From Lentimicrobiaceae bacterium (GTDB lineage Bacteria; Bacteroidota; Bacteroidia; Bacteroidales; JAGNHN01): a DNA stretch of 64,000 nt. Below are positions 1 to 420 of this stretch, piece after piece. The notes under the pieces are model-generated. The model was given only the letters and a program-made list of their open reading frames with translations. It ran no database searches and was not told the origin of the DNA. How positions within the stretch are numbered: position 1 is the stretch's first letter; each line of letters starts with the position of its first letter. The DNA lies in contig JAGNHN010000010.1 of the NCBI GenBank assembly GCA_018001695.1, forward strand, positions 1 to 64,000, in the 5' to 3' direction. Both the position numbers and the translations under genes were made by a program.

Positions 1-26
1 CCGGCTTTTATGGAGGGCTCGTGGCT

Positions 27-95
27 CCCGGGTTCAGTAACCGGGCTTACGTTAGCTTCTTGGAGTAAAAATCTCCATCGGTTACTTCACCCGGG
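27..95. repeat. Two-tier stem-loop, non-coding
   Basis: This is an inverted repeat in a gene-free stretch. Bases 27-33 (CCCGGGT) are complementary to 89-95, and 36-43 (AGTAACCG) are complementary to 79-86, separated only by a 2+2 internal loop. The apical region holds a further 5-bp hairpin, TGGAG at 61-65 with CTCCA at 73-77. No convincing reading frame crosses it. It is the first of four consecutive stem-loops in 1-420. Whether it acts as RNA, as a DNA palindrome or as a relic of a dispersed repeat cannot be told from this window. Confidence 0.7.
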
Positions 96-107
96 GTTAT
101 TGCTGTT

Positions 108-127
108 GGACTCCCTTTCGGGAGTCC
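108..127. repeat. Perfect 8-bp hairpin
   Basis: GGACTCCC at 108-115 pairs perfectly with GGGAGTCC at 120-127 across a TTTC tetraloop. No T-run follows on either strand, so it is not a classical intrinsic terminator. It is the second stem-loop of the structured block at the left edge. Confidence 0.75.
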
Positions 128-144
128 AGTGGGTATTGATGGGC

Positions 145-211
145 GTTCCCTGCTGTGCGTAGCTTCTGCCACCGCTGTCCATAGCGTGGAGGCTACAGAC
201 AGCGAGGGAAC
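145..211. repeat. 67-nt long imperfect stem-loop
   Basis: Nearly the whole segment pairs with itself. GTTCCCT at 145-151 pairs with 205-211, GCTGT at 152-156 with 199-203, and GTAGC at 159-163 with 192-196. An inner stem joins 169-176 to 183-189 with one bulged base. Such continuous pairing with small bulges resembles a structured RNA or a mobile palindromic element more than random sequence. No RNA family is recognised. Confidence 0.65.
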
Positions 212-224
212 TTACTCCCACTCG

Positions 225-248
225 CTCTCACTCTCACTCTCACTCTCA
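225..248. repeat. Hexanucleotide microsatellite (CTCTCA)x4
   Basis: Four perfect tandem copies of CTCTCA, preceded by a near copy. The tract lies between the 145-211 stem-loop and the nested inverted repeats next to tRNA-Asp. It is not in a gene, so copy-number change would not alter a protein. Confidence 0.85.
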
Positions 249-304
249 TCCGGGGATTGCCTCATTCGCTTCGCTCATTCGGCGGACCCGGGAGGGGGGG
301 CTAC

Positions 305-420
305 GCATCAAAGCTCCCTCGCTGCGCTCGGACTTTTTGCTTCCCCGTTCGCATCCGAGCAAGCTCGATGCTCCGGGAAAGCAAAAAGCTCCAAAAGCTG
401 TGCTTTTGGAGCTTTGATGC
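305..420. repeat. Nested inverted repeats abutting tRNA-Asp
   Basis: GCATCAAAGCTCC at 305-317 is the exact inverse of 408-420, the segment touching the 3' end of tRNA-Asp. Inside it, about 333-347 (CTTTTTGCTTCCCCG) is a near-perfect inverse of 374-388, with one mismatch. The terminator hairpin of the tRNA (385-415) lies in the same interval. So the tRNA's 3' flank has an inverted copy about 100 bp away. Confidence 0.65.
383..415 (-). terminator. Intrinsic terminator of tRNA-Asp
   Basis: A perfect 14-bp stem joins 385-398 to 402-415 with a TGT loop. Read on the minus strand it starts five bases past the tRNA 3' end and is followed by a T-run, the complement of the A-run at 383-387. Stem, loop, U-run and position all fit a Rho-independent terminator. 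Confidence 0.85.

Follow-up and report, generated by a model that had tools for sequence, protein, structure and literature searches.

What makes the first 420 bases of this DNA so rich in hairpins, and where do these hairpins come from? The window, that is the whole stretch of 64,000 nucleotides from a Lentimicrobiaceae bacterium that was analysed, starts at base 1 of its contig (C90) in an assembly of 99 contigs, 3.24 Mb and 97.8% completeness. A sequence-only reading had described four stem-loop structures and a hexamer microsatellite in 1-420, and all of them are found there. It had also claimed that their density is beyond chance, and we checked this by folding shuffled sequences: none of 100 shuffles was as good, on either strand. 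The plus strand folds at -196.8 kcal/mol versus -148.8 kcal/mol for 100 shuffles (z -6.7), and the minus strand at -194.0 versus -136.8 kcal/mol (z -10.1, 100 shuffles). Taken separately, with plus and minus strand in this order, the structures reach z-scores of -6.4 and -6.0 (27-95), -3.8 and -5.1 (108-127), -4.9 and -6.5 (145-211) and -8.0 and -8.7 (304-421), and the part that holds the microsatellite and the bases beyond it (212-303) is ordinary versus shuffles (-0.4 and -1.3). The stretch was said to contain no gene, and indeed the Open Reading Frames of at least 60 aa in 1-418 share sequence with the tRNA or with repeats, and none is gene-like. Positions 1-420 are a composite, in which several dispersed palindromic DNA repeats adjoin the terminator of a tRNA-Asp gene in a mosaic.

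The tRNA-Asp (GTC) is encoded on the minus strand at 419-493, where it is matched by the Rfam tRNA model RF00005, and its intrinsic terminator is located at 385-415 on the same strand, with a 14-bp stem and then a T-rich tail. Beyond the terminator there is a second minus-strand hairpin (352-373). G001, the sole same-genus genome searched, which shares family and genus with the window organism, also has the tRNA-Asp, with a homologue of the gene that comes next (48% identity over 455 aa); similarity spans 346-527 of the window at 87%. The terminator is retained in G001 with an altered stem (sequences compared by reading), and the pairing of the second hairpin is kept with one two-sided change, GCAT/ATGC to GCAC/GTGC (by eye), while 350-375 alone folds weakly (z -2.2 and -1.2). 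Because the similarity ends at 346, positions 1-345 are not common to G001 at the same place. The statement that the tRNA does not explain the structures is wrong for about 346-418, which is conserved with the tRNA-Asp and includes its terminator. On the plus strand, 304-346 repeats part of the terminator region in inverted form, as the match of 304-421 against its own reverse complement shows (73%, E 2e-5). It was not seen in G001, and a template switch at the terminator hairpin would yield such an inverted copy.

The strong folding on both strands, together with the conservation of 346-418 beside the tRNA in G001, could also be taken as the mark of a structured non-coding RNA or of a long trailer of the tRNA-Asp that has its own function. 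We consider this highly improbable: positions 1-345 are missing at the same place in G001, the terminator stands between tRNA-Asp and the repeats, and folding on both strands is what palindromic DNA gives. Moreover, only the tRNA (RF00005) reaches the gathering score in the window in an Rfam search, and no other family does so in 1-700 with lax filters.

Copies in the own genome, which had been proposed as the sign of a dispersed repeat, do exist. Positions 1-418 have matches in 26 places (the self-match and weak ones counted), the best non-self match being a copy of 86% identity over 208 bases (1-208) on another contig, C79, with shorter, partial copies on C11, several of which surround a Y1 transposase gene. 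Among the three origins that the sequence-only reading had offered, a dispersed palindromic repeat was borne out for 1-211, and neither the non-coding RNA nor debris of integration at the tRNA end was. The last of these was rejected as the 3' flank beside the tRNA is conserved in G001, the distance between repeat and tRNA is about 200 bases or more, and no tRNA exists in the 4 kb around the C79 copy.

The dispersed repeat, family A, is represented in the window by a minus-strand unit at 1-133, and its units are spaced by 125-130 bp in the C11 and C79 arrays. Comparison with C79 indicates that the window unit is cut at the next hairpin of the array because contig C90 begins there. On the minus strand the order is a first hairpin (H1), the linker AACAGCAATAA and a second hairpin (H2). 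H1, at 108-127, is a perfect 8-bp hairpin, GGACTCCC-GAAA-GGGAGTCC, preceded by CTGTT on the plus strand and followed by AACAG on the minus strand. The linker between H1 and H2, AACAGCAATAA(C), lies at 96-107 and matches the linker found across species, about AAYANNAATARCC. H2 extends over 27-95, with outer arms at 89-95 and 27-33 (CCCGGGT and ACCCGGG) and inner arms at 79-84 and 38-43. It is atypical, having outer arms tens of bases apart versus loops of 3-5 nt in the units of other species.

Family A was found in three places of its own genome only (C11, C79 and the window), and its C11 copies stand in tandem. A search of the whole genome for the exact H1 pattern gave nine occurrences, six of them flanking the C11 transposase gene, two on C79 and one in the window, versus no occurrence of the reversed control pattern in the same genome. 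The H1 pattern was not found in G001, where there is also no transposase match at 1e-20 and no window repeat at the homologous place. The window repeat is a multi-copy intergenic palindrome clustered at a solitary Y1 transposase gene, which is one criterion for a REP sequence and its REPtron. With its expanded H2 the window unit by itself falls short of genome-wide significance as a member, and its assignment rests on H1, the linker, the C11 family and the placement of this family on either side of the transposase gene. Covariation within family A is weak, with two-sided changes in 2 of 21 pairs and 51 of 500 shuffles reaching the pairing level, in an alignment of few sequences of which three rows from C11 (C11d) are without most of H1, the cut stretches having begun in its loop. 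Row seven of alignment A1 (C11d0) holds no unit and was excluded from alignment A5.

The Y1 gene that lies within the C11 array encodes a protein of 148 aa (Pfam Y1_Tnp, 1.8e-20) with the motifs DHLH, WQ and YVENQKQHH. It is one of four Y1 genes in the genome (C6, C11, C27 and C67) and is solitary, the next most similar copy being 33% identical. Excerpts of Quentin et al. (2018, PMC6006769) give Y---Q--HH, DH[IV]H and WQ as the signature of subclass 1.2, and describe this subclass as low in copy number, mostly from Cyanobacteria and Bacteroidetes and generally without IS200-type ends. The Y motif of this subclass (Y...Q..HH) is present in the C11 protein and also in those of C6 (YIANQEQHH) and C27 (YIANQERHH). 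The HuH motif is DHLH at C11, DHVH at C6 and NHVH at C27, compared with the published DH[IV]H, and WQ is present. The C11 protein also fits subclass 1.2 in length (median 148 aa), in low copy number and in low identity between copies. Across 53 loci of homologues, the HuH and Y...Q..HH pattern was found in 49, and a C-terminal tail of the kind D-[EK]-[KR]-[YF]-L is shared among homologues (by eye). The cognate enzyme of the window repeat is most likely this solitary 148-aa HUH/Y1 transposase.

A matching protein and hairpins would also be expected if the window held the relic of an entire IS200/IS605-type insertion sequence, with the hairpins as its left and right ends (LE/RE). The C11 protein does match Y1_Tnp, IS200-type solved structures and the NCBIfam model transpos_IS200, the last just above its cut-off (56.3 versus 55 bits). 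The gene is nevertheless solitary, with a next copy of only 33% identity, and its Y...Q..HH motif and shared C-terminal tail, too, speak against such an origin. The hairpins form arrays, and in relatives the units tend to be inverted about the gene rather than standing one at each end. This makes a relic of that type quite unlikely. Compared with IS200/IS605 elements (subclass 1.1), the system has in common the HUH/Y1 core and subterminal hairpins, presumably recognised as single strands, and differs by its arrays and lone repeats and by the lack, in its own genome, of a near-identical multi-copy element with fixed ends.

Palindromes are present near each of the four Y1 genes and differ from gene to gene (flanks read): for example, a perfect hairpin CCCCGGGCGTTGCCCGGGG is found near the C27 gene and arrays of GGCACGCGTCTGAAGACGCGTGCC-like units near the C67 gene. 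The C67 gene (within L035, 1-2658) belongs to class 2 and is subclass 2.6-like by motif (NHLH and YIHNNP), and its flanks contain 18 starts of GGCACGCGTCT on one side and 6 of GGTCGTCTYYYGACGACC on the other. Directly after the C6 gene, which has the subclass 1.2 motif, there is an array of CCAACCCCGAAGGGGTGA hairpins (L032, 1950-2560), and similar units seem to exist on C79 and C65 (by eye).

We then compared the flanks of homologous transposase genes. The 53 loci consist of the own C11 locus, 29 loci of relatives and 23 loci of named records, and by title 16 of the last belong to Bacteroidota and 7 do not (Balneola and Balneolaceae, two Ignavibacteriae, Melioribacteraceae, and single metagenome bins called Armatimonadota and Hydrogenedentes). 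Two of the locus names (L096 and L127) denote the same stretch; otherwise no 40-base stretch is common to the 23 named loci and other loci. Repeated hairpin families exist in the 700-bp flanks of 24 of the 53 loci, on both sides in 12, and since neither name of the duplicated stretch is among the positives, this amounts to 24 of 52 distinct loci. Among the controls, 2 of 28 tRNA-Asp loci (spacers unmatched for length) and 0 of 17 distal flanks were positive, and shuffles gave an expectation of about 0.1. Hairpin pairs with a gap of 6-14 nt, of whatever plan, were detected at 24 of 52 loci (L111 absent; 23 of 51 when distinct loci are counted) versus 0 of 28 of the same length-unmatched tRNA-Asp spacers. 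Among the flanks read for 28 of these loci together with own loci, many are alike in that two hairpins, the first frequently with a GAA loop, are joined by a linker close to AACATGAATAACC, and the stem letters of these units vary from locus to locus.

The linker letters were tested by comparing the pattern GGRNNNNAAYANNAATARCC with its reversed form in 99 genomes, with a match at 1e-20 counted as the transposase. In the 40 transposase-bearing genomes (own included) the pattern occurs 104 times versus 35 for the reversed one, and in the 59 others 30 versus 22 times. An excess of at least 3 is found in 7 of 40 versus 1 of 59 genomes (Fisher 0.007), and the Mann-Whitney rank test gives 0.07. The highest copy numbers are 29 (G036), 13 (G028) and 12 (G051), and both hairpins are present at 14 of 20, 11 of 13 and 11 of 11 fetched linker copies in these genomes, respectively; in G051, four couples of linker copies are inverted at a distance of about 100-200 bp. 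A linker match exists in 49 genomes, and when sites were picked by linker only, one hit from each of 30 of them, both hairpins were found in 8 of 18 transposase-bearing genomes versus 1 of 12 others, with chance rates of 0.013 for H1 and 0.002 for H2. In the pick from the own genome the H1 stem is shifted relative to the fixed frame, so that it fails the tests for both hairpins.

At the transposase locus of G036 (L194, contig C236) there are arrays of the same plan, with stems unlike those of the dispersed copies that were read in that genome, and this mismatch could mean an older or an absent second enzyme. Repeats similar to GTTCGCGAGTCCC also form a run at this locus.

A covariance model of H1-linker-H2 (R1) was built from other species only, with 16 units of 13 named-record loci. 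From 20 located units, L126:2317 was dropped (no H2 there), and from the 19 aligned, L127, L128:2301 and L135 were dropped as misaligned. In the training units, which were chosen for forming hairpins, 92% of pairs are formed and 12 of 14 pairs show two-sided changes. With E<=0.01, R1 has matches in 31 of 39 transposase-bearing relatives versus 12 of 59 without the transposase (98 relatives; Fisher 7e-9, Mann-Whitney 7e-11). The numbers of matches are at least 516 versus at least 36, and these are lower bounds, as the genome search used strict filters and scored up to 60 first-look candidates per genome. The own genome, which has the transposase and no match at E<=0.01, was left out of this contingency; with it the first count is 31 of 40. 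Presence of the transposase was scored with one query and one cut-off (1e-20), so distant or decayed copies may be missed, and there are 8 of 39 transposase-bearing relatives without an R1 match and 12 of 59 relatives with R1 matches and no protein match at this cut-off. For example, one genome (G065; L165) has nine R1 matches and a linker hit with both hairpins and no match of the subclass 1.2 query at 1e-20, and is a candidate for an enzyme lost or diverged. The influence of shared ancestry on the association is limited, not removed, because the relatives are all labelled as different families of one order, G001 being the sole one of the window organism's own family and genus.

The class 2 transposase of the C67 type was considered as the driver of the H1-linker-H2 repeats and was rejected, as it has no clear effect by strata. 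Where the C67-like gene is absent, the association of R1 with the subclass 1.2 transposase persists (19 of 25 versus 9 of 52, p 1.4e-6), and in genomes that have it the difference (12 of 14 versus 3 of 7) does not reach significance (p 0.12). The effect of the C67-like gene itself on R1 matches is 12 of 14 versus 19 of 25 genomes with subclass 1.2 present (p 0.69) and 3 of 7 versus 9 of 52 with it absent (p 0.14).

R1 units are also found near the gene itself: 14 of 29 transposase loci of relatives contain 43 matches, versus 0 of 29 tRNA-Asp loci. In these matches the modelled pairs are formed at 96.7% and two-sided changes exist at 13 of 14 pairs, in an alignment that leans to the model. The units tend to point H2 at the gene from either side, with 19 plus and 7 minus in the 5' flank and 4 plus and 12 minus in the 3' flank (p 0.004; 42 of the 43 matches, overlapping ones kept, the L111 match being excluded as the gene strand was not found). 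A search of the own genome with R1 yields 9 matches at E<=1, none at E<=0.01, and the window unit is the second best with E 0.084. The best is on C45 (E 0.049); the C45 match and another on C85 are at no known Y1 gene, and 6 further matches are at the C6 and C11 Y1 genes.

Could the repeat be nothing but spacer debris, in which replication slippage and gene conversion multiplied unrelated junk palindromes around a transposase gene that is there by coincidence? The spacers of this genome do hold many kinds of repeats, including microsatellites and a second palindrome family without an assigned enzyme (family B, below), and the C11 copies stand in tandem, as from slippage. Against this, the same plan with other stem letters recurs at the homologous transposases of other species and tracks the presence of the gene, and we hold such debris to be an unlikely, though not negligible, explanation.

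The repeat has copies that cluster at a transposase gene, and its plan recurs with other stem letters at the homologous transposases of relatives. On our best reading, for which we have fairly good confidence, the window repeat is a REP/RAYT-like non-autonomous element, and its mobilisation by the subclass 1.2 transposase is inferred. The recurrence of H1-linker-H2 with subclass 1.2 transposases is the interesting part of this finding. In general, it seems somewhat more plausible than otherwise that the Y1 proteins of subclass 1.2, instead of being relatives of IS200 transposases that lack repeats, serve a separate and widespread REP-like system. They would mobilise a two-hairpin element H1-AAYANNAATARCC-H2, with stems that differ from enzyme to enzyme and a near-constant linker as the site of cutting or joining.

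In the most likely process, H1 and H2 would fold when the strand becomes single (lagging strand of replication), and the transposase would bind the folded hairpins. Its tyrosine would then nick beside the linker, and the enzyme would rejoin the ends. Hairpins with GAA loops closed by C-G are unusually stable in DNA, which would favour the H1-to-H2 strand as the folded one. The near-fixed linker between two variable hairpins is a candidate cut or guide sequence. By analogy with IS608-type and REP-type enzymes, as described in excerpts of PMC6006769 and PMC8266576, the HUH/Y1 protein would form a tyrosine-5'-phosphate link. Units might be copied or moved into spacers and multiplied in tandem, the spread in this genome presumably being due to the C11 enzyme.

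The nearest known systems are the REPtrons, REP/BIME sequences with TnpA-REP (RAYT) in Proteobacteria and others. Like them, the present system has short palindromes at a solitary Y1 gene and also in other spacers, different Y1 genes have different palindromes, and inverted pairs occur (for example in G051). Unlike them, the C11 enzyme is not of class 2 (Y---NP) and has the subclass 1.2 motif, and the window repeat is a unit of two hairpins with the conserved AAYANNAATARCC linker and without an evident GT[AG]G foot, this REP tetranucleotide being not found at the foot of the H1 hairpin of family A. According to excerpts of PMC6006769, GT[AG]G is also missing from the repeats of subclass 2.6 and class 3. 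The C11 gene resembles published subclass 1.2 as excerpted from that paper in Y---Q--HH, WQ, a length of about 148 aa, low copy number and occurrence in Bacteroidetes, and is unlike it in the repeat arrays at genes here and in DHLH as its HuH motif. Table 1 of the same paper (PMC6006769), as far as the excerpt goes, has "no" for REP sequences in subclass 1.2, an entry that describes the published sample and is no sequence criterion. Subclass 2.6, mostly from Bacteroidetes and with "atypical secondary structures" in the excerpted text, is similar in the palindromes around its gene, and the C67 gene fits it by motif; the window repeat differs in clustering at the C11 gene with its class 1 motif, and the C67-like gene is no predictor of the H1-linker-H2 repeats. 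Among the titles and abstract beginnings listed from open-licence literature, none describes repeats of subclass 1.2 genes.

REP-like repeats have a part in shaping spacers, transcript ends and the plasticity of genomes, and their Y1 enzymes serve as a model for how transposases become domesticated. If our reading is true, an arrangement of the REP type is not confined to class 2 (and the small class 3) and extends to enzymes close to true IS200 transposases. If subclass 1.2 has such repeats, the near-fixed linker is a direct candidate for the cleavage site. Our reading would also offer a cause for hairpin-rich spacers in which short-read assemblies break, as at the start of the window.

Beside family A, the window contains a second dispersed palindrome, family B (139-208, no strand assigned), whose core GTCCGTAGCGTGGACGCTACGGACAGCGAGGG is degenerate here and which was copied along with family A at C79 (1-208, 86%). 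With at most two mismatches, the core is found on C11, C29, C30, C49, C57, C65, C79 and C96 as well as in the window (13 forward and 8 reverse hits, versus 2 and 1 for the reversed control), and no enzyme was found for family B. It is followed by the CACTCT hexamer microsatellite (about 218-246, no strand assigned), which recurs in other spacers rich in repeats. Neither of these two kinds of spacer repeat has an assigned enzyme. The family B palindrome GTCCGTAGCGTGGACGCTACGGAC occurs in several spacers (L029; C30, C65 and C96), with no Y1 gene on those contigs. On both C65 and C11 the neighbours of family B include a further palindrome, TTATCCGCGNAGCGGATAA, as well as an inverted repeat around TCTTTGGTTCATTTCTTTGGGCG. 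Adjoining the C11 array of family A, there is a spacer repeat of about 112 bases (L028, 1927-2365; starts at 1927, 2040, 2253 and 2365), which contains a run of N (2136-2235). A tRNA-Pro (L028, 1712-1787) lies about 0.7 kb from the nearest H1 on C11, a neighbourhood that we take as chance.
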